Shown in pieces: positions 1 through 63,638 of a stretch of DNA of 64,000 bases. Within the stretch, counting starts at the first letter, position 1. Each line of letters begins with the position of its first letter. Source of the DNA: Sacculina carcini. Its lineage: Eukaryota > Arthropoda > Thecostraca > Sacculinidae. The notes under the pieces were generated by a model. That model saw only the letters and a program-made list of their open reading frames with translations. It had not been told where the DNA came from and ran no database searches. A program made the translations under genes and the position numbers. The stretch spans positions 4,949,826 to 5,013,825 of the forward strand of contig OU696578.1 of the NCBI GenBank assembly GCA_916048095.2. The letters run 5' to 3'.

Positions 1-238
1 TGTCATCTGAACGTAGATTGTGTGAAGTCGTAGACTTGAGCTCCAGCCAATTGTTAACATAAGCTGGCGACTTGAAGAACATTGCCATGTAGACAAGACA
101 CACTACCCTAAACTCAATAATACCTTTCATCGGAAGCCATGATAGTCGAATAAGATGCTCAGTTATATGTGCTCTAACTGAAAGTCGAAATATTAGCCTG
201 CACGCTTTGTTTATAATACGCTGAATTCTGCGAAGTTG
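1..238 (-). pseudogene. LINE reverse transcriptase fragment (region after the RT core), running off the left edge
   Basis: On the minus strand an uninterrupted frame from 238 down to 1 (about 79 codons) reads like the post-RT region of many non-LTR retrotransposons. It begins with a Q-L-R-R-I-Q type helix, followed by KACRLIF, then ITEHLIRLSWLPMKG, then EFRVVCLVY, and finally an SPAYV segment and HNLRSDD. In this part of LINE ORF2, the pattern LQ..QN.A.R / HWLP...RI.FK...L.YK / P.YL is standard. There is no methionine start because this is an internal piece. The element continues to the left of the window, and its upstream side ends near 238. No stop or frameshift is visible. The subclass cannot be told from this length. 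Confidence 0.75.
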
Positions 239-313
239 TATGTGTAGTTGTATGTGTGCGAAGAAGTATGTGGTAAATTCAAATAAAGCGAACGACAATA
301 ATGCAGCAATGAG

Positions 314-316
<3 letters not shown>

Positions 317-394
<78 letters not shown>
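317..394. repeat. (CA)39 microsatellite
   Basis: Thirty-nine uninterrupted CA units. The tract directly abuts the 5' truncation point of the nuclease-bearing LINE copy that starts at 396. It generates spurious poly-Thr-His and poly-Val-Cys reading frames. Confidence 0.98.
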
Positions 395-395
<1 letters not shown>

Positions 396-397
<2 letters not shown>

Positions 398-1556
398 GCA
401 CCCGGCGTTGTTCTTCCTGAGCAGATACGCGTCGGTGCCGCGGGCCATGTACCTGATGAAAGCAGCCCCAATATACAGGGCGACCTCTCAGCTCGTCACC
501 ATCGACGAGAGCCTCCGATCGGCCATCGGCAACTGCTGCAACGTCGACCTGGACGACGATCAATGGGAGCAAGCGGCGCTGCCCGTCCGTCTGGGAGGCA
601 TCGGGGCTAGGCGGCTGATCGACGTGGCGCTGCCTGCTCATATCGCCTCAATGGAGGCCGCTGGGGACCTGGTCAGTCATATAATTGACCGCCAACGCGG
701 TGACAGACCTGGTCTCCCGGCGCCCCCCGTGGAGGAGTTTGTGAGCAGAATGTACCCGGCTTTCAGCCAGCAAAATGTGCCCGAGTCCCTCACTCAGCGC
801 CACCTCGACACGAACGCGTCAGAGCACCGCCTGAACAGTCTGCTCCAGAGAGCCAACCAGGTGGACCGAGCCCGCCTTCTGGCTGCGGCCGCACCTCATA
901 GCGGCGCCTGGTTGTCCGCCCTTCCGATCTCCAGCCTCGGCCTGCTGCTGCCCGACGAAGCCGCTCGCGTCGGTGTGGCGCTGCGCCTGGGAGCTGCCAT
1001 CCAGCAGCCGCACAGGTGCCGTTGCGGCTGAACCGACCGATGGGGCCACCACAGTCTGTGGTGCTGCCACAACGTCGGCCGACTGCCGCGTCACACTGCC
1101 CTGAACGACATCGTCCATCGCAGTTTGGCGTCGGCAGGAGTCGCGGCAGTGTTGGAACCTCGCGGTCTGAACCGAAGCGACGGCCGCCGGCCGGACGGGA
1201 TCACCATCTTTCCCTTCCGGCGCGGAAAATCGCTCGTCTCGGACGTGACGTGCACCAACACCTTCAGCAGTGCACACCTGTTGGAGGGTGCAGTCGTTCC
1301 CGGGGCAGCGGCTCGGGCGGCCGAGGAGACGAAGAAACGACGCTACTCGGACTTGAGCCAGCGGTATGACTTCGCGCCGCTGGCCGTCGAAACAGCCGGC
1401 GTGCTGGGGTCCACATTCGACGACCTCATCAAGATCATCGGTCGTCGAATAACAGAGCGCTCGGGAGAGCCGCGCGAGACGGCCTGGCTCAGAGAGCAGG
1501 TCAGCCTGGCGGTCGTGCGCGGCAACGCGGCAACCATCACCAGGTCGCCGAACTGA
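396..1556 (+). pseudogene. LINE ORF C-terminal part with zinc-knuckle and PD-(D/E)XK-like nuclease region, copy 1 (frameshifted)
   Basis: The reading enters from the CA repeat at SHPALFFLSRYASVPR, which is post-RT sequence. It continues through SLPVRLGGIGARR-type and ALPAHIAS-type segments to a CRCG cysteine motif near 1015-1031, where it hits TGA. The other copy (5724-6976) continues in frame here, so this copy has a small deletion near 1031. The sequence resumes in another frame with H..GR.PRH.ALNDI, LEPRGLNRSDGRRPDG, SDVTCTNTF and a C-terminal ETAGVLGS...VVRGNAA block, ending at TGA 1556. The C..C...H...H cluster followed by GRRPDG and a D-V-containing strand resembles the zinc-finger plus restriction-like endonuclease tail of site-specific LINEs; that function is inferred. 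The segment is GC-rich (about 65%), unlike its AT-rich surroundings. Confidence 0.75.
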
Positions 1557-2251
1557 TGTGTGTGTGTGCGTGTTTGTCAGTTTTATATCGTGTTTTGTAT
1601 GAGTGTATGATTGTGTATGTATAATATAAATTGTGTGTGTCAAAAAAAAACAAGCAAACAAAAAACACGCACATACACGCACATACACACGACACACAAG
1701 CACACATACACACACACATACACACACACATACACACACACAACACACACACACACACACACACACACAACACATACACACAACACACACTCACACATAC
1801 AACACACATACAACACACACACAACACACACAACACACTCACACACACAACACACACACACAACACACACTCACACATAAAACACACATACAACACACAC
1901 ACAACACACTCACACACACAACACACGCGCACCACACGCACACACATGCAAACACACAACACACAACACACACACACAACACACAGACAACACACACACA
2001 CACCGTGTGGTCCGATGCGGTCTGTACATAAGCTTATCGTGAAGTCAAATATGACAAAACCAAGCGAAATGTGAGTTTACTCATTACGTACTTGACTAGC
2101 CTGAGGCAACTCAGCAACCCAATTCTGTGCTCTGCACACACACACTCAAGCACAAGAGTCATACACATACACAATCACGAACACACACCCACATACACAC
2201 ACATACACACACATAAACACACACACACACAGCACACACACACACCACACA

Positions 2252-2284
<33 letters not shown>

Positions 2285-2492
2285 CACACACACACACACA
2301 TACACACACATACACACAACACACAAACACACATACACACACACACACATACACACACACACAGCACACACAACACACACACACACACACAACACACACA
2401 CACACACAACACACACACACAACACACACACATACTCACACATACACACGCACACACACACATACATACACACATTCACACACACACACCTT
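1557..2492. repeat. LINE 3' tail followed by degenerate CA-rich satellite-like tract
   Basis: After the LINE stop, 1557-1668 is TG-rich 3' UTR ending in TGTGTGTC plus A-rich sequence. Copy 2 ends the same way at about 7020-7050. From about 1670 to 2012, and again from 2140 to 2492, the DNA is an almost pure mix of CA, CATA and CAACA units. The intervening 2013-2139 is unique sequence with no coding signal. All the long His-Thr or Val-Cys reading frames here are artefacts of the dinucleotide repeat. Confidence 0.9.
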
Positions 2493-3136
2493 CAAAGCAT
2501 AACAATCAATTTGCAACAGCAATCATCAAAAAATAATTGTCACTCTGATTTCGCTTTGATAAGCCAAATATATCAAATTGATTATGAACATGAAACTGAT
2601 CAATATGTTAATAATTGGCAAGAATTAGAGGTGTGTGGCCTTCAATATAGTATTTAAACATCGTTCAATAACTTTCGTGTATAATATATACTCATATATA
2701 AATGTCCGTGTATAAAATTGTTGGTATTCACTCTGCGTGAATGCGTGTGTGTGTTTTCACCGAGTTAATATGCACAGGAATGCGTGAAGAATTCGTCTTC
2801 CCGTCTCCCAGTTGTCATAATTATCTGTTGAAAAATATTATGTTATGATTTGTGATTTAGGCCTGATTTCTGTTTCATTTATTGATGTTTCTATGCGCAT
2901 GTGTGTTTGTGTGTGTGTGTGTGTGTGTTTATGCATGTATTCGTGTATGCGAGATAGGTCTCCTGTTTGAATGTTTATGCTTGTTCATTTGCATATGAAC
3001 TTCAAAATCACGCCATGACACTTAGCCGCGTTTGAAGTCGGCCCAGCTAAATGACCGATTTGGGAGTTTGTGTTAGCTGGATTTAATTGCCATAGTCGGA
3101 AGACGCAATTAGACACAACATTATTTCATGTATGAA

Positions 3137-3168
<32 letters not shown>

Positions 3169-3625
3169 GATTGCGCGCTGTCGAGAAAACGCATCAATAA
3201 TCAAATGTGCGCCACCAAAATACAAGCTGTTTACTTTGTCCTTCATTTCGAGGTGTTCGTGTCGATATATAAAACATTATCATTACAAATACACATAGAA
3301 TGCACTTTAACATTATTAAATAATCAAAATATGATTCATACCCATAAACATTGTAAATTATGGTAACATTTTCAAATTGACTTTAGGATATATATACATA
3401 TACAATTAAAATGAATATATACTTGTAAAAATCAGTATGCAAAAACTGCACGGTAATTTGAATAAGTGAAATTGTGAAATTATTCATGTTTCTATTATTT
3501 ATTCATGAAACTACTTGGGCACGTCGTCAATTCGTCGAACAATTCGTCGTCGAACAATTGCATGTTGTTTACTATTATTGCTGATTATTGTAGTACACAG
3601 TCTATTGAGCACTCAACGTAGTGCA
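2493..3625. other. AT-rich stretch without a recognised gene
   Basis: No coding signal seen. It holds a TG microsatellite at about 2903-2930 and a short AT tract at about 3139-3161. Near 3515-3550 a GTCGTCAATTCGTCGAACAA-like motif is imperfectly repeated. Confidence 0.6.
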
Positions 3626-3820
3626 CTATCGCTTTGCGAGATTGGCGTGCAATATCTTGAGTAATGCGCAGTGCATCGATGATGGAACCAACATTCTACG
3701 ACCACGTACGACGAGCCGGTTCAAATACCTCGCTAGACTGGTCCATTCAAAAACCTCCATTGAATCAGGGCTAAAAAGCTGAGTTGTGGGAAGTAAGCGA
3801 TATATTGTTCTAAATTCTGC
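3626..3820 (-). pseudogene. Possible LTR-retrotransposon integrase-start relic
   Basis: A minus-strand frame contains LARYLNRLVVRGRRMLVP followed by a leucine-rich helix with LKILHANLAKR. Gypsy/BEL-type polyproteins show the pattern R-x-VV-x-G-x-R-ψVP-x-S...ψL-x-x-LH at the border between RNase H and the integrase zinc-binding domain. The match is short and has no HHCC motif or flanking integrase core, so it is only a weak call. The 5' part of the same frame (3820-3913) is hydrophobic and AT-rich and probably chance. Confidence 0.3.
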
Positions 3821-3913
3821 TGGAGCATCATAATTGAGAACAATAATAAGAACAAAAGCAAACATGAAACAGTATAGCAACAATTGAAAAAACAGCGGTG
3901 TGATGATAAACAA

Positions 3914-4399
3914 TGGAATGAGTAGTTAACACTAGAAAAAATAACGTTTAATTATCATACAAGCAAGACAAACGAAGGCGGAAAAGAGCAAACTCCACCA
4001 GAAACAAGAACAAATGATGAATGAAACGATCACATTTGAGCGTATGAACAAGTTATATCTTGATATGAACCCGCAGATCACAAAACATATCCCTCAAGCA
4101 ATAGAGCAGCATGCATTAACAGAGATATAAATGCAAATAACTCATATGTTAACGCACAATTACAATAGGAAAGAGAGAAAGCATATATGACCATACGAAG
4201 ATTAAGAAATGCTCGACAGCGTGAGATGAACACTATCATAGCACGACATATATCGGGTGAGACAGGTTTTACATCTACACGAGAGTGAAAGAGGCAAACA
4301 TCTGAAAACATAGAATAGCATACGTGGGAAAGCAATACCATACGTATAATATATCGAAATAATATAATTAGGATCAATAATAAATATATAAAAATAATA
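3914..4399. other. AT-rich stretch, nothing recognised
   Basis: No gene, repeat family or RNA recognised. A 99-codon minus-strand frame at 4078-4377 has no family resemblance and biased AT codons, and was not called. Confidence 0.5.
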
Positions 4400-4802
4400 T
4401 AGCGTAAATGCTCTATTTATCCGACAGGCTTTAATAATCCGGCAGGCTCTAATAATCCGGCACCCTCAGGTGTGGGTTGAAAAATACTCCTGCAGGATCT
4501 AATAATCCGTCACTTCCTGGAAAGGCTTATTGAAACTGCAACCACGATTCAGTTATAGTTCAGCAACAGTTTATTTAGCAATCCTCTTATAAACCGGCAC
4601 TCATTAATCAAAGCAGAAATCATCGTCTTCTCTCGCTTCTCTCGTCCCTGTTATCAGTGCACTATTTTTTGTGTTGCAGTTTTTGCGCAATCATACCGTG
4701 CGGAGTTACCAAAAATAATCCGACAGGCTCCAATACTCCGGCACCATACGCAGGGGGTCGAAAAATAATCCGGCATGTCGGATAATAAGAGCATTTACGG
4801 TA
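4400..4802 (-). mobile_element. TA-flanked MITE (mariner/Tigger-like), copy A
   Basis: The left end reads TAGCGTAAATGCTCTATTTA and the right end, reverse complemented, reads TACCGTAAATGCTCTTATTA, giving terminal inverted repeats over at least 25 bp that continue into an ATCCGACA motif. The ends coincide with TA dinucleotides, as expected of Tc1/mariner-type target duplications. Inside, the motif AATAATCCGGCA recurs several times. The same element lies at 58928-59284 in the opposite orientation. No coding capacity is present, so it is a non-autonomous derivative. Confidence 0.8.
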
Positions 4803-5363
4803 GGTATAATGTAACAATAACATGTACTAAAATACGTGGAAACCGCTACGAGAAAATTGGCAAACGATCTTGAAATAAGTCGCAAGAAATGCGGAAATGA
4901 AAACGGAAGCAATCCAAAGAAAAATCAGGATATATAGAATATTATTGGAACACACTTAGCTTTAGGGCGACCTTTTAGTGTGCACGAAATTCAGAAAATT
5001 TGAGTTAAAAAATCCTAAAAGTTGCGAAAAAAATGGCTGAAATTTTACTGAAACTCGCGACAAAAAAATAATGAAAATCAGTGAATTATGAAAACGTACC
5101 TTTTGTGAAAAAATTGAGTTTTTTACAATAACCATAACATTTTTACAATGGGCATTATAATACGTTTTTTACAATACGTTGTGAGTATTCGCGGCTGTGC
5201 TAAGACTACATGTTATATAATATCCAACTCTCACGTCACAGATGACTGGAGTGAAATTTTGGGACAAAACAATCGCAAAAAGTTTCCCTAAAAATCGCAA
5301 GCAGTTGTATTCAAAAACATTGTTCATTCATGTTTCACGAAAAAATATTACTGTAATGTTCTT
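4803..5363. other. AT-rich stretch, nothing recognised
   Basis: No gene or RNA seen. A short motif, TGAGTATTCGCGGCTGTGCT at about 5180, has a weak counterpart near 9569, which hints at a decayed repeat. Confidence 0.4.
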
Positions 5364-5723
5364 GTGTCGCCTCTGATTGGCGAGAAACACACAGATGTAA
5401 GAAACAAAAATACTATAGTATATCACAGACAGGCGCGCGTGGTGCAGTCATGCCCACCCGCGCCTACAAGACGTCACAACGCTATCACACTTCGAACACG
5501 ACTCCACGCTCACACCGTGACACACGGCAGCACACACGGACAGACACACACGCACATCCATCACACCTACCGCAACAACCAATCAGCGGCGAGCCGGTCA
5601 CTCGCTCGCCGCCGCGGGGCATAGACAATTCAGAGTGTCACTCATACACACATACAAACACAGTAAACGACACGAACGCAAACGCGAATAACACACACAC
5701 ACACCCACACACACACACACACT
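5364..5723 (+). mobile_element. Element 5' segment with CCAATCAGC motif and CA-rich run leading into LINE copy 2
   Basis: This segment precedes the coding part of LINE copy 2. About 5450-5640 resembles 11070-11275 in the receptor intron: both have a cytosine/adenine-rich run, then an ACCAATCAGC box, then a GAGC-GGTCAC and a CACCGCCGCGGG-like motif, then CACACA-rich sequence. The shared order suggests the 5' portion of one repeat family. The frame starting at ATG 5450 runs through it without a stop into the LINE domain, but the His/Thr-rich stretch is simply translated CA repeat and there is no evidence it is a real start. Confidence 0.5.
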
Positions 5724-6976
5724 CCGACCTGCATCGGCTCGGCGCACCAGTGCAGACTGGCGGCATTGCAGAGGCACTGAAAGAAATCGAGGCCAAGACG
5801 TCCCTGCTGATTCAGCGCTCATCCAACATCGGCTCGCACCCGGCGCTGTTCTTTCTCAGCAGGTATGCGTCGGTTCCGCGAACAATGTATCTGCTAAAAG
5901 CAGCGCCGGTGTACCAGGCCCCTGAACAAATGGGTGACATCGACGAACAGCTGAGATCGGCCATCAGCGATTGCTGCAATGCCGCCATGTCATACGCACA
6001 GTGGCTTCAGGCTTCCCTTCCGGTCCGCCACGGAGGTATCGGAGCCAGACGTCTGAGCGACGTGGCACTACCTGCCCATATCGCCTCGCTGGAAGCCACC
6101 AGAGACTTGCTCTGTCTCATTAACCACCGCGCAAGCGGTGACAGACCCTGCTATCTGGTGGCAGCCATCGAGGAGTTCGTGTACACCATGTGCCCGGACT
6201 TCAGCACGAGCGAGCCACTGAACCATCGCCATCTGGACGATCGATACTCCTCCGTCCGCCAGCAGCATCTCCTTGGAAGCGCCGACCAGCTGTGCCGAGC
6301 CCGTCTCCTGGCCACAGCCGCTCCTCACGTCGGCGCTTGGCTGTCAGCGCTGCCTGTCCCCAGCCTCGACTTGCTGCTGCCAGACGAAGCCGTCCTAGTC
6401 GACGTGGCGTTGCGATTTGGTGCCGCAGTGCAGGAACCACACAGATGCCGTTGCGGTGCCACAACTGACAGGTGGGGTCACTTTAGCCTCTCCTGCAGTC
6501 ACAATGCCGGCCGCCAACCACGCCACATAGCGCTGAATAACATCATTCGTCGCAGTCTGGCGTCGACAGAAATCGCAGCGGTTTTTGAGCCACGAGGCCT
6601 GGACCGCGGCGACGGCCGCCGACCGGATGGATTTACCGTGTTCCCGGTGCGGCACGGAAAGTCACTGCTCTGGGATGTGATCTGCGTCAACACATTCTGT
6701 GACACACATCTGCTGGACGGCACGGTCACTCCCGGGGCAGCAGCGCAGGCGGCAGAAGATAGAACGCGGTGGCGCTACGCAGAACTGTATCAGCGGTACG
6801 ATTTCGTGACGCTGGCTATCGAAACCACCGGCGTGATGGGGGCGTCCCTGGACGACTTCGTCAAACTCCTGGGCGGAAGAACCAGTGAGTGTTCAGGGGA
6901 GCCGCGAGAGGCGGCCTGGCGGCAGCGAATAAGCCTGGCCGTCATTCGCGGCAACGCCGCCTCCATTGTATTGTAG
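5724..6976 (+). pseudogene. LINE ORF C-terminal part with zinc-knuckle and PD-(D/E)XK-like nuclease region, copy 2 (open frame, 5' truncated)
   Basis: An open frame of about 417 codons starts immediately after CACACACA at 5722. It begins in the linker after the reverse transcriptase core (LGAPVQTGGIAEALKEIEAK), followed by SHPALFFLSRYASVPR, SLPVRHGGIGARR, ALPAHIAS and a CRCG...WGHFSLSC..NAGR..RH cysteine/histidine cluster at about 6445-6530. Next comes EPRGLDRGDGRRPDG (about 6590-6630) and LLWDVICVNTF (about 6665-6700), matching the P-D...D spacing of a restriction-like nuclease. It ends ETTGVMGAS...VIRGNAAS with TAG at 6974-6976. The RT catalytic domain is missing, so this is a dead, 5'-truncated insertion whose remaining frame is intact. 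It is GC-rich and closely related to copy 1, which suggests recent activity. The endonuclease role is inferred from residue pattern. Confidence 0.75.
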
Positions 6977-11290: not shown

Positions 11291-11626
11291 CGTACAGGCA
11301 AAATCTCACACAAACATAAGCACACTGAAACGATCACACACTCTCACACAATATATGACTCTCTCTCACCTAACACAATCACACAACACATTAACCGTCT
11401 CAGAAACGTCCACAAGAATGTACACCCAATAATTTTATCTAAGATTTATTAAATATATCACACCATTAGCCTGCCTAATTTGTATTTTCTTCAGATTCAC
11501 CTTAAAACCATCCTTAGAAGCTTCCATGCAACCCAATTTTTAGTGTTTTTCTTCATTTTCCTCTGGTGACTTAGCGACATTTTGGCCGAGACCCTCAAGG
11601 AATTTGTTGTCGTTGTATGTTGGAAG

Positions 11627-12822
11627 GAGAGTGGGTGCTGGGAGTGATCGTGTGCCGACTGTGGCTGATCGTCGACTACACCGCGTCCACTGCTTCCATC
11701 CTCAATCTATGCATCCTCAGCCTGGACCGCTACTGGAGCATCACCGCGCCGCTGCGCTACCTGCGACGACGCACCAAACGTCGAGCGCTGGCAATGATCA
11801 CGAGCGTCTGGCTGCTCTCGTCCTGCTGGATCTGGCCGGTGCTGTTCTGGACTTCGACGCCAGCGGCGACAAGTCACGTCGGTAGCGGCAACAGCGCCTG
11901 CGAAACCGGCTTCGCTGCCAACTGGATCTTTAAGCTGGTCACAGCCACACTCAACTTCTACATTCCCTGGCTGTGGATGGTGTTTCTATACGCCCGTATG
12001 TTCAGCGTAATTCGCCGTCGGGCGCGTCTCGAGGTCGGCCGCTTTAATCAAGGACGAGGCCGCACTCACTCTTATCGCGAACCTATCGGGCCGGCCAGCG
12101 ACACTGCAGTTGCTGCAACAATTGATGCTGCCACCTCCGCGCCACAAATAACTCCGCCGCTTGGTCGCATACGCCGCTGCAGTAGCGCCGGCAACTACGA
12201 CCAATTGATTCTGGTGACGTTGCCGTCAATAGAAAATCAAAAGACCAAGTGCGGAGACAGGCGCCGTATGAATAAGCTTCAGCGCTACCGAGGTGTCAGC
12301 GTTCGAGTACAGGAAGCTAACAGCAACGTCGACCACGATCGACAACTTCAGGAGACATGTCTCGACAAGACGGCGTTATCGACAGCAGCCTACAATACCG
12401 ATAAGACTTGCCATAGTTCAGGTTCACCACGGATGACGCTCTCCGCCCCACTGGATAGGGCTCAATTGGGAGGATCGTTGGTGAAGAGCAGACGAACACG
12501 CCGTGCCAGCACAGACAATATTATCCTGCAGCGCGAAAAGAAGGCCGCCGTGCAGCTGAGCGTAATCATGGGAGCGTTTGTGCTGTGCTGGCTGCCGTAC
12601 AGTTTGCTGTTTGTGGTGGTGGCCATGTGCGATGATTGCGTCAGTCAGACAGCCTACATGAGCGCCATCTGGCTCGGCTACCTCAACTCGACGCTCAATC
12701 CTATTCTCTACCCGTTGTGCAACGCAAACTTTAAGCAGGCGTTCCGTCGAATGATCACACGCAGAAGCCAAACAACTAGGGGCAGTTTGTCGACAAGGAA
12801 CGATCGTGCCAATCCTCAATAA
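11627..12822 (+). CDS. Histamine H1-like aminergic GPCR, terminal exon (TM3 to C-terminus)
   Basis: The exon encodes about 397 residues. TM3 has a cysteine at 11653, Asp3.32 in LIVDYTAS (11674) for amine binding, and DRY at 11725-11733. TM4 ends WPVLFW, the muscarinic/H1 pattern. TM5 reads FKLVTATLNFYIPWLW; FK.xTA..NFY.P with the asparagine at position 5.46 is the histamine H1 signature. A third intracellular loop of roughly 175 residues rich in Arg, Ser and Asn follows. TM6 (AAVQLSVIMGAFVLCWLPYS) carries CWLP, TM7 (IWLGYLNSTLNPILYPLC) carries NPxxY, and a short tail ends at TAA 12820-12822. The predicted role is a plasma-membrane amine receptor coupling to a G protein. H1-like is the best match, muscarinic-like second; the ligand cannot be read from sequence. 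Confidence 0.88.
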
Positions 12823-15647: not shown

Positions 15648-22619
<6,972 letters not shown>

Positions 22620-39417: not shown

Positions 39418-41167
39418 ATGATGCAATCAATGCTTGTTTTGCGTCATCTTCTTGAACGTGCATATGCTGCTGATAACATCAGGACACTTCAGTTTTGTTC
39501 TGCTTGTTACGGAGAGAGGTGCGATAATAGTGTGCTAATCATGGAGCCTGAGAACAATTTTGTTACTTTATCCGAAGCAATGGAAAGTACTGAGCATTCG
39601 ACCAAGACTCAAAACGTTGTGATACTTCCCCCAGACAGTGGTGATAATGCTATTGATAGTAACGTGGAGGATGCCGACAACATCATGGCGAGTCATGAAT
39701 AATTGTTTGAACCAGCCGGCCGACTGCAGGTTGACGTGGACGATGAGGATGAGAGTGAGGATAATTCACCTGCGGATAAAAGGACAAGCCAGCAACCGAA
39801 ATCGCCATGGGGAAAAGCTAGTCGTTTTTTGGCTGATATTGATTGTGATGAACCGGAAAGCTTGCTTGAGTCACACACTAATTTGGCTAGATTTTCGCCC
39901 GTCCAGCTGTGGGAGTGAATATTTAGTAAATCCTTTATGGACTTGATTGTGTGCCAAACCAACACATATGCCAGGAAAGATAAGAACAAGTCTGCTTTTG
40001 AGGTGTGCCACGACGAAATTCTCACTTTTCTCGGTATTTTGACTATGTCTGGCTACCATAAAGTGCCACATGAGCAACACTATGGGTCCACTCAGCCAGA
40101 TTTTGGTGTGAAACTGGCGTCGAGCGCAAAGTCTCGAAAACGATTCAATAATCTCAAAGTAATGTTGCATTTCGCTGATAACAGGCATCTTACTTCCGGT
40201 GATAAGCTCGCGAAAATTCGCCAGATCTATACCAAGTTGAATTCAAATTTAATTAAGCATGGTGTTTTCGGGAGAAAACTCAGTATTGACGAATACATGG
40301 TAGCTTATTATGGACGCCATTCGGCCAAAATGTTCATCAAAGGGAAGCCAATACGGTTTGGTTACAAATTATGGGCACTTTGTGGAAGTGATGGGTATCC
40401 ATACCGGCTGGAGCTCTAAGCTGGCAAGCAGACATGCCAAAACATGCAGACATGCCAAAGCAGACATGTCACTCTCTGAGAGGAACGTAAAGGCAACTGT
40501 CACCATACGTGAAGCAAGGTCTGGTGGCGCATCAAAATCTATTAAATCCAGTGCTGACATGAAAAAGCTACCAAGAGATAGCTTTGACTACCGGTGTGAT
40601 GGACACGTGTATGTGTGCAAATGACACGATAATTCCATCGTGGGCATCGCCAGCAACCACCAGAATCATATGCCTGTGAAGGAGGCGACTCGGCGAGTGA
40701 AAGATGCGAGCTCCATAAAAGTGAATCAACCACACCTCATCCGCACGTACAATGAGGGTATGGGGGTGTTGATCTTATGGACCGTCTCCTGGCAGCATAC
40801 CGGTCGTCAATCAGAGACAAGAAATGGTACTGGAATCTTTTTCCGAATGCGCTCAACGTATCTGTTGTGGCTGCATGGCGGTTACATTGTCTTGTGGCTG
40901 ACACACCTCTGTCTCATTTGGATTTCATGAGACAGACAGACCCTCTGTTTATTGAAGTCAGTTAGTCATTGTCGTGATCAACGCCACATCTCGACTGATA
41001 CGCCGCCTGATGTTCGACGTGACGGTCGCGATTATTACAAGCGACCGTGTAAGCAAGGTACATGTGTGGTTTGCAAGAAAAACACCAGATATGAGTGTGC
41101 TAAATATCAAGTGAGGCTGCATTATGACGGAAACACCAAGTGCGCTCTTACTTTTCATACGAAGTAA
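39418..41167 (+). pseudogene. piggyBac transposase pseudogene
   Basis: An acidic N-terminal region (DVDDEDESEDN near 39735) is followed by ARFSPVQLWE, EILTFLGILTMSGYHKVP (about 40015-40065), RKRFNNLKVMLHFADN, and KLSIDEYMVAYYGRHSAK with IKGKPIRFGYKLW (about 40275-40380). The SIDE aspartate is the first catalytic residue. Two in-frame stops (TAA 39700, TGA 39916) break the 5' half. After TAA 40417 the piece that should contain the second catalytic Asp (DNFFTS region) is absent. Sequence resumes with MKKLPRDSFDYRCDG and SIVGIASNHQNH (about 40555-40670), then a frameshift before the third catalytic block LMDRLLAAYRSS (40775). It ends with a Cys-rich CVVCKKNTRYECAKY domain up to TAA 41165-41167. 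The element is dead. Confidence 0.85.
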
Positions 41168-45014: not shown

Positions 45015-46291
45015 ACAATAATGTGCGATTAACCAAACATTTGTTGTTGTTGTAAGACCTTCACCAACTGTATACATGTAGCAATGAGTGCAGCACGAAA
45101 TGCAATAATCGCAAATCATCCAGCTAATCCAGCAAATAACAACAAGAACCGCACGAATATTGCAAGTGGCCGAGACAACGCTAAACAAATTCCGAATTGA
45201 ATAAAAGTGATAGAAAAGAGTTGTTACGATGCAAAACACCAGTGAAATGTCTTGCGGTAACATGTGAAATACATTACAGCAAAATACGGACCAAAATTAG
45301 TCAATAAAACTTCTCAAAAGATACACACACACACACGTGTACTTTGTATACGCGTGTACTTTGTTTGCATATAGTTGTATGTTTGCGTATTGTTTCACGT
45401 GTATGTGTATGAGAATATGTGTACGAATATGTATGGTAGACTGTGGTAGGTATGGTTATATGTTTGTTGTGTATCATTGTATATGAATAGTGTTTATATG
45501 TGATCGCGCGCGCATGAGTGTGAATATATGTACTTGTATATATATAACCTGGCTTGATAGCATTATTTCCACCTGTACAAGTGAAATGTAAGCCTGTCTA
45601 TGAGCATTAGCTCGACGGGTCTTTTTCCAATTGTGATATTTATTGTTTGAACATTGTATATTTGCTTGTGGCAATAAAGGGTTGAATACAAATACAAAAT
45701 ACAAAATACACACACACACACCGCAATATACGTAAGAACAAAGCCAAAACAATACACAACTGTCGCACAATCATCAAAGACTTGCATTCTCTCTCACAAG
45801 AGATTCACACGAGATGCTCGTCTCGCAACCCCCGTAAGCCCCCTCACTACAACCTCCATGCAGCAGCAGAATTAATATCAGACCATATCCATCCAGTGTC
45901 GCTTCGCAAATATTCAAACGACGGCAAAGCACAGCAGACAGTCAAATAGCTGCATAGATTTTCAAAAACTTATACATCAAAGAACAAGGTGCAGACAAGC
46001 GCAAACTGAGGGATCCGATACTGCCTCCTGCCTAGCATAGAACCACCATAAAACTCGAAGCGGCCCTGGATACAACACACAATATAAATCGCCAGAAAAA
46101 GAGAACTGGCTGAGTATGTATGTATGTGCGTTTGTGTGTGTGTGTATGTGTGTGTGTATGTGTCCAATAAAGCGCAAACAATAGTGCGTGTGAAGTGCAC
46201 AGATATAATTTGTCAACACAATGCCCGACCTCTCTTCTCTATACTTTTCTCCCAATCCTATCTCCACACACACACACATACACACATGTAC
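45015..46291. other. Intergenic DNA with a retroposon tail and CA/TG repeats
   Basis: Around 45640-45720 GGCAATAAAGGGTTGAATAC followed by repeated AAATAC and CA units looks like a retroposon 3' tail. TG-rich sequence lies at 46130-46160 and CA repeats at 46264-46288. The latter abut the LINE that begins at 46292. Confidence 0.45.
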
Positions 46292-46527
46292 CTGAATTTT
46301 GGGGAAGCATGTTGATGAAGCTAGTTATGGATAATTTGATAACACAATGCATAGAATGAGTCACCAGAATAAGAGGAGACGATCGACCATCTATGCTGGA
46401 CTTGCTGTTTACAAAGGACACAGATTTTATTAAGAGCATTGAACACAGGAGCCCAATGGGTAAAAGACCACATGGTGCTAATTATAAAAACACTGGAAGA
46501 GACGGTCGCTAAAGAGGAAACGACGTA
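46292..46527 (+). pseudogene. CR1-like LINE, 5' part (C-terminal end of the AP endonuclease), upstream of Helitron 2
   Basis: Frames read KLVMDNLITQCIE, a TGA, VTRIRGDDRPSMLDLLFTKD, KSIEHRSPMGK and, after a one-base shift near 46460, DHMVLIIKTLEETVAKEETT up to 46527. In APE-type LINEs, T..R.....S.LDL.F......V......PLGKSDH is the last endonuclease block, so the DH here is the conserved pair. It is 5' truncated at a CA microsatellite. The codon split at 46526-46527 (TA) is completed by T 51841 across the Helitron. Confidence 0.8.
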
Positions 46528-49500
46528 TCTATATATATAAAAGAGATCCTCTGTGTGTGTATGTGTCTGTGTGTCTGTGTGTCTGTTCGACCCTCCTTGG
46601 TCCATTTTCTATCAGCTATTATTTGGCCACCACTTGGCCTACCTGCTAACAATTTATACCATCACGTTGGAAATTTTGTTGTCTACACTTTATATTAAAT
46701 TTTAAATTTCAAAAATGAAATCAAAAAAAGTTATAGCGGTGAAAAGACAAAATGAACCCTGAAAAATGCGAAAATTTTGGTCAATTTTCTGAAGACTACT
46801 CCTCCTAAACCAGCAATAGTACAACTATAAAAATTATACCACCGAGTAGAAAATTTTCTCTTCTACTCAACGAATTATAATTTATACCCCAAAATTGTAT
46901 ATAAAACATGTAAAATGGAAAACAATCAATCTACATTCAAAATTTTATTTAAACTCCACGCGTCCGATTTTCTATACTTTTTTCTCTATTTCTCAAAAAC
47001 TAAATATCACACATCTAAATAAGTAATACTATCATGCTGGGAATTTTGTTTGCTACAACACGGTACAATTTATAATTTTCCAAAGTGTATTAAAAAAAAG
47101 TTACGGCGGTGTGAAGTGTAAATGACAAAAAGGCAAAAAGGCACAATTAGCACAAGAAACGTGAATATTTTGGTCAATATTCCGCTATCTATTCCTCATA
47201 AACCAGCAATGGTACAGCTATAAAAATTATACTATTGTGTAGATAATTTTGTGTTCTACAAGAAAAGTTATAATTTATACCCACAAATGATACAAAAAAC
47301 GTGTAAAATTGGCAAAATTCTCAAATACATCCAAAATTACACTTGAACACCGGGTGACTAAAATTAATTCATTTTTCTACTATTTCTCAGTAACTATTAG
47401 TTAAACATAAGAATAAATTATACCATCGTGCTAGAAATCTTGTTTTCTACAATACGGTATAATTTGTAATTTTCCAAAGTATATCTGAAGGAAGTTACGG
47501 CGGTGTAAAGTCAAAAGGACATATTGCCAATTTGACAGCTATTATGCGCACTTGCGATTACACAGGAATATACTACTGTGTAGATAATTTTGTGTTCTAC
47601 AAGATAAGCTATAATTTATATCCACAAATGAAACAAAAAACGTGTAAAATTGGCAAAATTCTCAAATACATCCTAAATAACACTTGAACACCGGGCGACT
47701 AAAATTAATTCATTTTTCTACTATTTCTCAGTAACTATTTGTTATATAAAAAATAAATTATACCATCGTGCTAGAAATATTTTTTTCTACAATACGGTAT
47801 AATTTGTAATTTTCCAAGGTGTATCTGAAGGAAGTTACGGCGGTGTAAAGTCAAAAGCACATATTACCAATTTGACAGCTATTATACGCACTTGCGATTA
47901 CACAGGAATATACACCGATTAATTTCACTGAAGTCCAATCACAATTTACGCACTTGCGATTACACAGGAATATACTAATGTGTAGATAATTTTGTGTTCT
48001 ACAAGATAAGCTATAATTTAAACCCACAAATGATACAAAAAAACGTGTAAAATTGGCAAAATTCTCAAATACATCCAAAATTACACTTGAACACCGGGCG
48101 AATAAAATAAATTCATTTGTCTACTATTTTCCAGTAACTATTTGTTACACATAAAAATAAAGTATACCATCGTGCTGGAAATTTTGTTTTCTACAATCCA
48201 GTATAATTTTTAATTTTCCAAAGTGTATCTGAAGGAAGTTACGGCGGTGTAAAGTCAAAGGGACATATTGCCAATTTGACAGCTATTATGCGCACTTGCG
48301 ATTTCACAGGAATATACACCGATAAAATTTCACTGAAGCCCAATCACAATTAAGAATGTATCATATTAGCTCCAAGCATGGATGGTGTGGTTTTATTGCG
48401 TACAGTTTAATTAATGCTACACTATACTGAATATAAAGGCTTTATTGTCCGTAATATTTACACATGAATCGTTCCGCACGACGGGCGGGTAAAATGCTAC
48501 TGGGAACAAAGTAAACTACTGAATTTTACTGTGTAATTTAATTGGTTCAATTTCAAGTTGCATAAGGATACGGGTTGTAACATCATGCAATGCCAGCTAT
48601 ATGCATCTGCTGTTTTAGCGGAAGCATTAATCTGGAATTATAAAGATGAAAGAAAGTTACATTGTTTTGATAGTGTTACACTTCTGATTTACTACACACG
48701 AAGGATGGGTGTTAACTTGAGCACTGTTGAGGGAAAAAACATCGTCAATAATTAAAACAAGAATTTACAAATTTAACTTTTTCTATTGGTCGTTTTTTAT
48801 CAATTTTCTTTGTGTTTGTTTCGTGTTTGAGTTCTGAATTATTCCGCACGACGGGCAGCTTTAAATATGAGGCGGGTTGTGGAAAAACATATTTTCTAAA
48901 TTGAAACATAAATTTCACATTTGGAATTTTATATTGGCTAAATCTTTTCTATGGGTTTGTTTTTCTTTTTCAATTTGCACTAATTTTCTATGAATTGAAT
49001 ATTAATTATATTTTATGAACTTTTCCGCACGACGGGCGGGCTTGAATGTATCTATAAAGAGTGGGTTTAAATGATAGCGAGGTATATGATATTTTGCTAG
49101 CAGTAAATATTCCAGCGTTAAAAGTAGAATAGCTCTTGAGCAAATGATGGTGGAGAATGATGTGAACCTTCAAATATATTTTGCGATCTGATGATATATG
49201 TATTAGGAATAATACGTAGCAGAATATAGATTGCATAATATAATATCGGCTGTAATATCAAGGGCTGAAATATCGGTGTAATCCAAAAAATAACAACTGT
49301 ATGAATATGATACATTACTGGAAGCATTAACCGGGAATTATGAGATAATATTATGGAAAAAAGTTAATATATATAATAAAAAAATTATTGTTATTCTGTG
49401 TTTACATTTCGAAATTATCCCTGACGACAGGCTTAAGTATGAGGCGGCTTGACTGAATAATATGCCGTCAATTATTAGAATAAGAATACGCAAATTCAGA

Positions 49501-51343
49501 ACAGGAATTTTCTATTGGTATAGATTTTTCAATTTAGAGTTTTCTATTAGACCGGCTGTTTGCATTTAAATATGTATTACTTTTGTTTTATTAATTGTTC
49601 CGCACGACGGGTGGATTCAAACATTCAATTTTACCATGTGGAATGAATCCATATACAAAACATATATATACAAAATATACAAAACTCACGGGCTTGCCTT
49701 CAAGATCCAGACTCACTAATGTAAATGTGACTTAAATGGTGTATAAATATATCGCATTATGCAACAAATGTGAATTTAGCTGTTTGTAACAATTTGGTTC
49801 CGATACTATATTGGCGGGTTGAGAGAAAAGTATTGGTGGGCCGCGTGCTTGGGACCCCTGGGGTAGGTAATCTCAGTCTTCTGATTACAAATTATGATCG
49901 AATCAGTATATTTTGTGATCACAAACTAATAAGTTAAATCACCTCAGACTAGGCTGGGTGCGGTCAAGATTGGATGGTTGGGTTGGGTTGGGTAGGTTTG
50001 ACTCAGGTTATATTGGGTTTTAATGATAGCGGAAAATATATAAATTTTAGCAATAAATATTATAGCGGTAAATTAAAATAATACTTAAGCAAATGATGTC
50101 GGGGAATGATGTTGAGTAATAAATATAGTTTGGAAGCATTCTGATGAAAAGATTTCATCATCTTTCATTGTTTGTTTCGTGTTTGTGTTCTGAATTATAC
50201 CACACGACGGGCAGATTTATATATCAGGCGGGTTGAGGGATAATATTTGTCAAAATAAGAACAAAAATATTCAAATTTAGACTTTTCTATTGGTTAAGAT
50301 ATTTATAGGTTACATTTTTTGGTTTTCAATTTGTATTCATTATATTTTATGGATTTGATATGAATTTTATTGTATGAATTGTTCCGCACGACGGGTGGGT
50401 TTAAAAAAGTGTTTTTAGATCATTTTTTCAAATGGTTCATTTAAAAAAGGTAATTTTTTTTAAATAAAAATGTTCCGCGGGCAGCAACTATAGACAATAG
50501 AACGTTGAATTTCCCCTGTAGAATTAATCCATACACAAAACCAATGGATTTGACTTCAAATATGAATTTTATTGTATGAATTGTTCCGCACGACGGGCGG
50601 GTTTAAAAAAAGTGTTTCCATTGTTTATTTCATTTTTCAAATGGTTCATTTAAAAAAAGGTATTTTTTTAAAAATAAAAATGCTCCGCGGGCAGCAACTA
50701 TAGACAATAGAACGTTCAATTTACCCTGTAGAATTAATCCATACACAAAACCAATGGATTTGACTTCAAGATTCAGAACGGATCGTGTTCGAATTCTGAA
50801 TTATTCAGCACGACGGGCGGGTTTAAAAATGACTCAGGCGGACTGAGGGGAAATATTTTGTCGAAATAAAAATTTATTCCTTTTCTCTTATGAATTGAAT
50901 ACAAATTTAATAGTATGAACCGTTCCGCACGACGAGCGGGTTTACATGCTAGAACTTTCATTGTTTGTTACGTCTTTGTGTTCTGAATAATTCCGCACGA
51001 CGAGCAGGTTCAAATATGAGGCGGATTGAGGGATAATATTTTGTCAAAGTAAAATCATAAATATTCACATTTAGAGTTTTTATTGGTGAACGTATTTACA
51101 GGTTGAACTTTTTGCGGATCGTATTCGAGCTCTGAATTATTCCGTACGACGGGCGGGTTTCAATATGAGGCGGGTTGAGGGATCATATTTTGTCAAAATA
51201 AACATAAAAAATGAAATTTAGAATTTTCATTTGATTAGGATATATATGGATTTAATATAATATTTTTTAATTTGAATTTTTTTATTTATATAATATGAAT
51301 TTTATTTCATGAATTGCTCCGCACAACGGGCTGGTTTTAATGC

Positions 51344-51375
<32 letters not shown>

Positions 51376-51840
51376 TAAAAGAAATTATCTGTCTTTCAGT
51401 GTGTATGTATGCTTGAATATGAGGTGATATTATTGCGCGGGCTCAATGGTATAGATCAGGGGCTTCAAACGTAAACGAAGCAATGGATCATGTGTATGAA
51501 ATAAAAATGTCCCGCGGGCAGCAACTATAGACAATATGACGTTCAATTTCACCGTGTAGAATGAATTAATAAACAAAAACTAACGGATTTGACTTCAAGA
51601 TCTACAATGGATCGTGTTTGACTTATAAATTATTTCGCACGACGGGCGGGTTTAATTATGAGGCAGATTGATGGAAAATATTCTGTCAAAAAAAGAAAAA
51701 AAGAGTAAACTTAGACTTTTCAATTGATTACAATTTTATGACTGTACCCTTTTTCTTATTTAATTTTCAATTTTTTTATGGATTAAACATGAATTTCATT
51801 TTGAGAGTTGTTCCGCACAACGGGCGGGTTTTAATGCTAG
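46528..51840 (+). mobile_element. Non-autonomous Helitron 2 (5313 bp), inserted in the LINE
   Basis: It has the same termini as Helitron 1: TCTATATATATAAAAGAGAT at the start, and CCGCACAACGGGCGG, nine bases, then CTAG at the end, with host A 46527 and host T 51841. The boundaries are proven by the flanks, because removal restores a continuous LINE codon and frame. The five-unit array has motif positions near 46660, 47026, 47420, 47760 and 48166, the same spacing pattern as in Helitron 1 (about 366, 394, 341, 405 bp), so the array predates both copies. The 3' half has about fifteen CCGCACGACGGGCGG-like modules (for example 48475, 48841, 49023, 49597, 50383, 50585, 50926, 51140, 51810). No coding capacity for Rep/helicase was found. 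Confidence 0.9.
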
Positions 51841-53960
51841 TACAGGAATAAAGTACAATTATGCCGGATCAAATATGGATGGGCTTAAAAGATACTTCGC
51901 GGGCATTGATTGGAGTGAGCTCTTGGAAGCCAAAAACATACAAACAAGAGAAGTACACGATTTTGAAACATGTATATATCACTGGAGTAGAGCAATTCGT
52001 GCCTGTCATTAAGCAGAGACTGGAATTAAACAATCCTGGTTCAACAAGGTATGCAACAATGCTAGGAATATAAAAGGAAGAGCCTGGAGCAAAATAAGAA
52101 AGAGAAACACAGAAGAAACTGAAAGAAGTACAATATCGCGAGGAATTAGTATGTATATTTACGACGGCAAGAACAAATGAAGAATGAAAAAGATATTCTG
52201 AACAAGTGTCACAAAGAGCCGAAATTGTTCTACAAATATATAAACAGCAAGCTCAAGCGGAAAGTCAAAATCGATGAATTCCTCACAGAAGATGGATTAT
52301 GTGACGATGCAAGAAAATGAGCGAAATTTTGAACAAACAGTTCCAAGATGTTTTCACAAACGGATCTGAGTTTACATGCAAAGAAGTACCATCCAAGACA
52401 CCACCATTGAAAAGAGTACGATTGGTCAAGAGTGACATACTGCGAAGGCTAAGTGAATTGGATGGCAGGAAATCAGTTGGGCCAGATGAAATATCAGGAA
52501 TGATATTGAAAGTGTGCAGAGGGCAATTAATCGAGCCTATTTACAACATATTTAAAAGTAGTTTAAATGCAGGCAAAGTTTCCAACGATTGGAAGCAAGC
52601 ATGGATTGCACCAATATTGAAAAGTGGTGCAAGGAATAATCCAAGGAACTATAGACCCATATCATTGACATGTGTACTCTGTAAGATATGTGAGGGCATC
52701 ATAAGTAATGGGTGGACTATCTGGAAAATCACACAATTTTGTCTGAAAAACAGTATGGCTTCAGAAGAAAAGTGTTGTGTCAAACAAACTTGTTGAACTT
52801 TTACTCAAAAGTCACTGACAACCTACAGGAAAGGGATGGACGGGTGGATTGTATCTACCTAGACATGAAAAAAACCTTCGACAAAGTGGCAATAACTAGG
52901 TTGCTATGGAAACTGAAGTATGTTGGAGGTATTGAGGGAAGGTTGCATGAGTGGATGGAGGACTATCTGACTGACAGGAGGATGTGCACGAGTGTGAGAG
53001 GCGTAAGATCAGCATGGGGAAAAGTTAGTAGCGGTGTGCCACAGGGGTCGGTATTGGGCCCAACTATGTTTTTGATTTATATAAATGATATATTTGAAGG
53101 TATATAGAATTATATGAGTCTATTCGCTGATGATGCAAAATTGATGAAGAAAGTGAGATCCAAGGAAAACTGCAAACTGCTGCAAAAGGACCTAGACCAA
53201 ATTCATAAATGGAGTATAGATTGGAATATGGAATTCAACTATATGAAATGCCATCACATGAAACTCGGAAAGAGTAAATATCGCCCGAGCTACGAATATA
53301 ACATAGGAGGACATTAAATAGAAGAGGTGGATGAAAAAAGGACCTGGGTATAATTTTTCAGAATAATTTATCATGTGAACGACACATGAGGCAAAGTAGT
53401 AAGTATGGCGTATCAAACAATAGCGCAAATTAGAACAGTATTTAATTATTTAGATTGCAAAACACTAAAAAAAATTATGGTTGCTATAATAAGACCCAAG
53501 TTAGAGTACTCTGGACCTGTGTGGACGCCATACAAAAAGAAAGATATAGCCAAATTAGAGAAGAATAAAAAATATTTTCGAAACTGATCCCAGAATTAGA
53601 GAAATTACGATATGAAGACAGACTAAAAAGACTTGGCTTGAAGACACTGCAAGAAAGGAGAGAGAGGAGATTTAATAGCGGTTTTCAAGTACTTAAATGG
53701 GTATGACACAGGATTTAACATTTCGGAATACAAACAAAAAAAAGGAAGACGAGGGCACAACAGGAAACTAAAGAAAACGAGATGCCGCAGCGACTTGAGG
53801 AAATATGGCTTCCCGTTTAGGTGCATTACCAAGTGGAATTCTTCAAGCAATGGTGTTGTGGGGGCGCCAACCATAAGTTCCTTTAAGCCGTTGCTGGACA
53901 AATGTGTCAATTGAGACGGGAACGCTCGAGCCATGCTCATCTCCCGTAAATTCAACTCGG
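51841..53960 (+). pseudogene. CR1-like LINE, 3' part (reverse transcriptase), downstream of Helitron 2
   Basis: Continues the frame from 46527 with MDGLKRYFAGIDWSELLEAK (51875), the linker usual after the endonuclease. The RT domain follows: SVGPDEISGMILKVC (about 52470), NPRNYRPISLT (52640), QYGFRRK (52750), [11 protein letters not shown] (52856, first catalytic Asp), [12 protein letters not shown] (53030) and LFADDAKLM (53120, FADD catalytic pair), then MEFNYMKCHHMKLGK. A late RLGLKTLQERR and a W-N-S-S-S-type segment lead to the 3' end GGTGAGAACA near 53960. Frameshifts lie within 52700-52800 and after about 53310, with a TAG at 53105-53107. This is one degenerate copy, closest in style to CR1/L2 clades. 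Confidence 0.85.

Positions 53961-61171: not shown

Positions 61172-63638
<2,467 letters not shown>

Follow-up and report, generated by a model that had tools for sequence, protein, structure and literature searches.

What kind of sequence is the 5.3-kb block that splits a long interspersed nuclear element (LINE) in the genome of Sacculina carcini, where exactly does it begin and end, and how do its relatives come to lie head to tail elsewhere in the assembly? The block lies in a stretch of 64,000 nucleotides of contig OU696578.1 (C10:4949826-5013825, hereafter the window), which is part of a 264-Mb assembly of 43 contigs (the own genome). Judged by its sequence, the block (46528-51840) is a canonical Helitron of the non-autonomous kind, new and present in many copies. 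We hold it very probable that it was moved in trans and inserted between an A and a T within the LINE; its family seems in addition to join its 5' TC to the CTAG ends of resident copies. Loci that were fetched from the assembly are given L numbers.

The block consists of 5313 bp, with TCTATATATATAAAAGAG at its start and TTTTAATGCTAG at its end, and interrupts a 5'-truncated LINE copy of which the left flank (...ACGACGTA) ends at 46527 and the right flank (TACAGG...) begins at 51841. With the insert taken out, the joined flanks read AKEETTYTGIKYNYAGSNMDGLKRYFAGIDWSELLEAK in a single frame. These joined flanks (236 + 300 bases) served as an empty-site query, for which the best 40 of 65 candidates were scored; at least 41 rows were obtained, 39 of them aligned across the junction; in the two that did not, the match was the right half in the window itself and a fragment on C3, respectively. 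Contiguity of LINE paralogues over the junction had been set beforehand as the test of the first-pass annotation, and all 30 paralogues that were fetched are gap-free there (50 bases per 50 bases). TTYTG is found in frame at the junction in 29 of them (the exception, L026, is frameshifted upstream), and the Tyr codon that had been read across it is TAT in 29 and TAC in L030. When the flanks were aligned separately, LINE homology ran to 46527 in every printed left-hand row but one (28 of 29; 46493 in L036; L030 gave no printed piece) and began at 51841 in all seven printed right-hand rows. L016 and L033 are partly N, outside the junction.

The borders of the split as first annotated are exact, and the empty sites bear out insertion between A and T without target duplication. 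The claim that removal restores the frame exactly is correct at the junction, but the LINE frame breaks again downstream; since the LINE is itself damaged, excision restores the junction frame and not a functional LINE. Likewise, the TC start and CTAG end hold, but the empty site, from which they had been derived, leaves a slack of one base: as T is the first letter of the insert and of the right flank alike, it allows TC...CTAG or, shifted one base, C...CTAGT. As to the LINE copy itself, paralogue homology begins at 46323 in one of the 29 printed rows and at 46287-46290 in the other 28, and was printed up to 53634, the right limit of 53960 being that of the first-pass annotation. One frame of the right part contains RVT_1 (E 2e-20); elsewhere in this part the frames are broken. 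The window copy is 91.3-92.9% identical to the paralogues (median 92.7), which have a median identity of 98.1% among themselves, and therefore represents an older or divergent LINE copy.

Two sister copies, L069 (C3) and L070 (C9), match the Helitron over its full length (1-5313), with identities of 97.9% and 97.8%, respectively, by BLAST and of 98.7 and 99.1% over aligned bases. Their 5' flanks are unlike the LINE and unlike each other; beyond the 3' end of each comes a further 5' end of the family, which in L070 lacks the leading TC. The C3 copy is one of three that share the 60 bases after the 3' end (L040-L042) and that were on this ground counted as a single insertion. The Helitron in the LINE, L069 and L070 make up subfamily II (98.7-99.1% identity within). 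Subfamily I (98.1-99.9% within) comprises a second copy in the window (15648-20251) and array monomers on C4 (4544 and 4545 bp) and C2 (4596 bp). The identity between the subfamilies is 89.8-90.4%, the two window copies being 90.4% identical over 4419 aligned bases. The relatives of 4.5-4.6 kb share the family ends, and together with the sisters they are the other copies with the same termini that the first-pass annotation had called for. On C29 (4786361-4786768 and 4776137-4776544; L006, L007) two head-to-head copies occur with TATA between the 5' ends, at sites about 10 kb apart. The block is rich in internal repeats, which would speak for a satellite array or a faulty assembly join; since two other loci have the same ends and align with it over its full length, and since the target is uninterrupted in the paralogues, we regard such an artefact as extremely improbable.

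The termini were then counted over the whole assembly. The 5' end TCTATATATATAAAAGAGATC (21 bases) has 2158 exact copies and the 3' end GGGCGGGTTTTAATGCTAG has 3169, some of them internal; the reversed patterns, taken as control, gave 0 for both. The base preceding the 5' end is A in 1710 cases (79%), G in 430 and C or T in 18, and the base following the 3' motif is T in 2616 of 3169 (83%); at least some of the 3' motifs that are not followed by T are probably internal old ends (cf. a near-motif in L075). The annotated A/T insertion is thus found at this locus, but genome-wide a preceding A is not absolute. Among the fetched loci, A precedes the 5' end in all eight (including the window itself and the two look-alikes on C29). 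Of the 30 fetched 3' ends, 28 can be aligned down to their final base (one being the window and three a single duplicated locus); all 28 are followed by T and end in CTAG, and the remaining two end in CTTG. Sisters, window relative and exact-motif counts fix the family ends to within one shared T.

In agreement with the initial reading that there is no visible coding sequence, no Pfam domain was recovered from the block in six frames (stops read as X) and no stop-to-stop frame of 150 amino acids occurs inside it. A structured RNA was rejected as its identity, the three matches of an Rfam search of the window at gathering score being tRNAs outside the block. With respect to class, canonical Helitrons have a hairpin about 10 nt before their 3' end, and elements of the Helentron/Helitron2 (DINE/HINE) branch have a 3' end other than CTRR and a target other than A^T. 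The block shows neither of the latter two features. What weighs against a canonical element is that its 3' hairpin is weak: a 4-bp stem plus one isolated pair, 9 nt before CTAG, folds at -4.1 kcal/mol (z -1.68 over 26 bases and -0.93 over 41 bases), and 11/200 and 39/200 shuffles, respectively, fold equally well. Published systems are referred to here and below through excerpts of the papers cited, in which a hairpin is described for the Helitron 3'-end region (PMC4778049) and from which the above distinction by ends and target was partly taken (PMC5148889). Lack of coding sequence and internal tandem units would fit the Helentron branch, satellite-like repeats being reported for oyster non-autonomous Helentrons (PMC7492417); however, a CTAG end with an A/T site is the canonical pattern (PMC5876387) and the Helitron2-type elements of Fusarium differ in ends and target (PMC5148889), which makes membership of that branch improbable. 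In kind the block is thus an ordinary transposon; what is new is its delimitation.

The G before 430 of the 5' ends is mostly that of the CTAG of another copy. The exact join, GGGCGGGTTTTAATGCTAG followed directly by TCTATATATATAAAAGAG, was counted 367 times across the genome (using a slightly shorter 5' pattern than for the 2158 ends), against 0 in the control and, by arithmetic, about 0.01 expected from random placement. Among the fetched 3' ends, a family 5' start lies no more than 40 bases away in 12 of 30, as is also visible at L040-L042. Such head-to-tail arrays could be concatemers, formed when replication runs round one circle more than once and the resulting multimer is inserted, or could have grown by unequal crossing-over; from a single replicated circle joined neighbours are expected to be near-identical. 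We compared the neighbours at seven exact joins over the first 600 bp, with the first 70 bases dropped as microsatellite, and found identities of 100% (C2), 98.9% (C4), 92.8% (C1c), 90.3% (C3b/c), 90.2% (C1a), 89.3% (C26) and 76.1% (C1b); an eighth pair (C3a/C3b, 94.6%) was left out of the count, its ends being separated by (TA)n. As five of the seven pairs are only 76.1-92.8% alike, these are not concatemers of one circle. In six of the seven joins, each member is also closer to some other sequence of the set than to its neighbour; for C4 and C1c the difference is small. At C26, where the join and both 5' parts could be read and zero bases separate the elements, the upstream element is 94.2% identical to the Helitron in the LINE and 90.8% to the 15648-20251 copy (about 1390 bp, 5' part), while the downstream element is 98.7% identical to the latter and 90.5% to the former (about 1500 bp).

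The spacing of the joins points in both directions. Among the 100 places listed there are six runs of at least three joins less than 9 kb apart, with unequal spacing in four and equal spacing in two. Equal distances were found twice for 4596, three times for 4544-4545 and three times for 3699 bases, the last on C6 (7693473-7704607), where four CTATA-TC joins form an array with worn 3' ends (93 CTATA-TC joins occur across the genome). The C2 neighbours are 99.85% identical over 4596 bp versus 98.1-98.4% to three other subfamily I sequences, as a concatemer would predict, but the first C4 monomer resembles its neighbour (99.16%) no more than it does the window copy (99.25%). Circles or rolling-circle replication have been offered as explanation in the Fusarium (PMC5148889) and Helraiser (PMC4778049, PMC5876387) papers, and two equal-spaced arrays look like concatemers or nearly so; as the account of the arrays at large, we find concatemer formation possible but rather doubtful.

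Several observations weigh against reading the joins as insertions at resident ends. The seven pairs are few and were chosen nonrandomly (C2 and C4 because their joins are equally spaced, the rest out of loci already fetched or arrays that had been listed), and the upstream element in C1a, C1b, C1c and C3b/c was deduced from the join-to-join distance. C1a and C3b/c agree in both subtypes and in their order, so that one composite may have moved; both C1c members are nearest to subfamily I and hence not clearly of different subfamilies; and the neighbours in the C2 and C4 arrays are as alike as expected of a concatemer. The outer flanks of two arrays were inspected for a clean A...T flank around a whole array, and none was found: L076 begins after another family pseudo-end, L075 contains an internal old end, L078 is without terminus and L079 is all N but one base. 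We consider that both routes occur and that the mixed pairs more likely stem from insertion at a resident CTAG^T end; recombination between arrays may have produced joins as well. Tentatively, and with somewhat less than even confidence, we propose that resident 3' ends (CTAG^T) constitute a second, dedicated target beside A^T, used by about one sixth of the copies: TC would be joined in trans to a resident CTAG in the reaction that otherwise closes the circle, which would yield arrays of mixed composition and, through read-through, elements that grow longer and longer and accumulate old 3' ends in rows.

Motifs of old 3' ends are present inside the elements. With up to 5 substitutions allowed, TTCCGCACGACGGGCGGGTTT occurs 14 times in the Helitron in the LINE, all but the terminal one internal, and 10 times in the 15648-20251 copy; GCTA is kept in three of the internal motifs (48472, 50923 and 51317). 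The motif at 51317 has CTAT for CTAG and is fused via (TA)n to a second 5'-end-like stretch, and as the same form recurs at 19312 in the second copy, this fusion probably predates the subfamily split. CTAT pseudo-ends are found 1592 times (exact) across the genome. In 20 of the 30 fetched 3'-end loci the best match starts at or a few bases from Helitron position 4348, which delimits a 966-bp 3' module, and the sequence upstream of this module differs among the loci inspected (seven in detail and one more separately). The pattern would fit growth via read-through and end exchange. Because the elements are mosaics, a single best match is inadequate for typing 3'-end loci.

A possible source of the enzymes is at hand. 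The Helitron Rep domain (PF14214) has 150 matched stretches (179 candidates) in the own genome, of which 14 lie within open frames 1332-1740 amino acids long (long open frames include those at C36:1181045, C35:2697942, C21:7275510 and C8:5427783, among others), and none in 14 control genomes; the presence of these genes makes mobilisation of the family in trans plausible. L071 (one open frame, 1704 amino acids) and L072 (712 and 941 amino acids) are copies of a single autonomous type, with 97-98% identity throughout their overlap. They share only (TA)n with the Helitron in the 8-9 kb fetched; their ends lie outside this stretch, and they neither show nor exclude a partnership. In L073 (C18, 3834-5543) two family-type 3' ends lie 0.8 and 1.2 kb downstream of the Rep match on the same strand, which is suggestive of either one element or a Rep gene beside a neighbouring family copy; no family 5' end occurs in the readable part (6322 of 9501 bases are N). 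A 1834-amino-acid open frame at this locus (C18:8064333) was discarded as untrustworthy, two thirds of the locus being N.

Among known systems, Helraiser, the reconstructed canonical Helitron of bat, likewise has a 5' TC, a 3' CTAG and A/T insertion without duplication (PMC4778049, PMC5876387), and its circle junction, in which CTAG is directly joined to TC, is a known Helitron reaction product (PMC4778049) and equals the join counted 367 times here. Helraiser differs in that it encodes a transposase and has a 3' hairpin shown to act as terminator (PMC4778049, PMC5876387), whereas the present family has no coding domain and a short 4-bp stem; moreover, the joins described here unite differing elements. 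Tandem Helitron arrays are known in plants and bats (PMC5876387). Maize HelA also has several 3' ends per element, the internal ones with a damaged CTAG (searched as CTAT), and a preference for insertion near or in other Helitrons has been reported for it (PMC3288121); its printed terminal motifs differ from those of the family, the Helitron in the LINE has 13 internal end motifs, and sections 7 and 12 of that paper hold no description of exact joins. Fusarium FoHeli (Helitron2) shares the evidence for circles, self-insertion and composite elements with multiple termini, but has other ends, a target between TNAT and A and asymmetric inverted repeats (PMC5148889). The oyster elements are similarly non-coding rolling-circle elements with internal tandem units, but are classed as Helentrons, and TCTATA and CTAG are absent from the text of the paper (PMC7492417); the excerpts of an insect Helitron paper (PMC6544945) contain nothing on the family ends. 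A literature word search returned no paper combining Helitron, TCTATA and CTAG, although word matching could miss an earlier report of joins between unlike Helitrons.

The most probable course of events would be as follows. The Rep/helicase of an autonomous Helitron would act in trans and copy one strand from the 5' TC to the CTAG end. The copied strand would then be inserted; that the insertion lies between A and T within the LINE and left the target unduplicated is shown by the ends, empty site and sisters. The same chemistry may also link a 5' TC directly to the CTAG of a resident copy and so generate the exact head-to-tail pairs. Joined neighbours and read-through beyond a worn 3' end could finally give rise to longer elements with several internal old 3' ends, the arrangement that is seen in both window copies.

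Features of the LINE-Helitron locus and of the second family copy (window positions).
Feature	Position	Strand	Basis or remark
Second family copy, subfamily I, 4604 bp, same terminal motifs, in (TA)n run	15648..20251	+	alignment, motifs
LINE copy, left part, 5'-truncated	46287..46527	+	paralogue homology
Non-autonomous Helitron, subfamily II, 5313 bp, TC...CTAG	46528..51840	+	empty sites; end-to-end sisters L069, L070
5' terminus TCTATATATATAAAAGAG	46528..46545	+	exact genome copies of 21-base form TCTATATATATAAAAGAGATC
Two tandem copies, 404-bp unit, 92% matches, in 5' half of Helitron	47547..48351	+	
13 internal copies of 3'-end motif TTCCGCACGACGGGCGGGTTT, up to 5 substitutions	48472..51653	+	
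966-bp 3' module	50875..51840	+	best-match start in 20/30 fetched 3'-end loci
Internal pseudo 3' end, CTAT for CTAG, then (TA)n and second 5'-end-like stretch	51317..51346	+	
3' terminus: short CCGC...GCGG hairpin (51813-51827), 9 nt, CTAG	51811..51840	+	exact genome copies of GGGCGGGTTTTAATGCTAG
LINE copy, right part, broken frames, RVT_1 in one frame	51841..53960	+	frames, Pfam, paralogue homology

The window furthermore contains: a transposase fragment with DDE_Tnp_1_7 (39919-40419, E 1e-32), which we take to be a domain of piggyBac-type elements; transposase parts that are spread over two reading frames and bear HTH_Tnp_Tc5 and DDE_1 (61232-63337), presumably pogo/Tigger-like; a frame of 415 amino acids for a rhodopsin-type G-protein-coupled receptor (11575-12822; 7tm_1, E 5e-47); and two long reading frames for visibly similar proteins (225-1031 and 5357-6976), the second of which has no Pfam match at E 0.01.

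The locus in this way delimits, to within one base, a family of thousands of copies without recognisable genes that would be missed by gene-based annotation. An autonomous Helitron that shares TCTATATATATAAAAG and the CTAG ends would be the partner of this family. The mixed exact joins are somewhat more interesting than the single insertion: since a single assembly of long contigs offers hundreds of exact joins between relatives that can be told apart, replication as a circle and insertion at a resident end become countable against each other.

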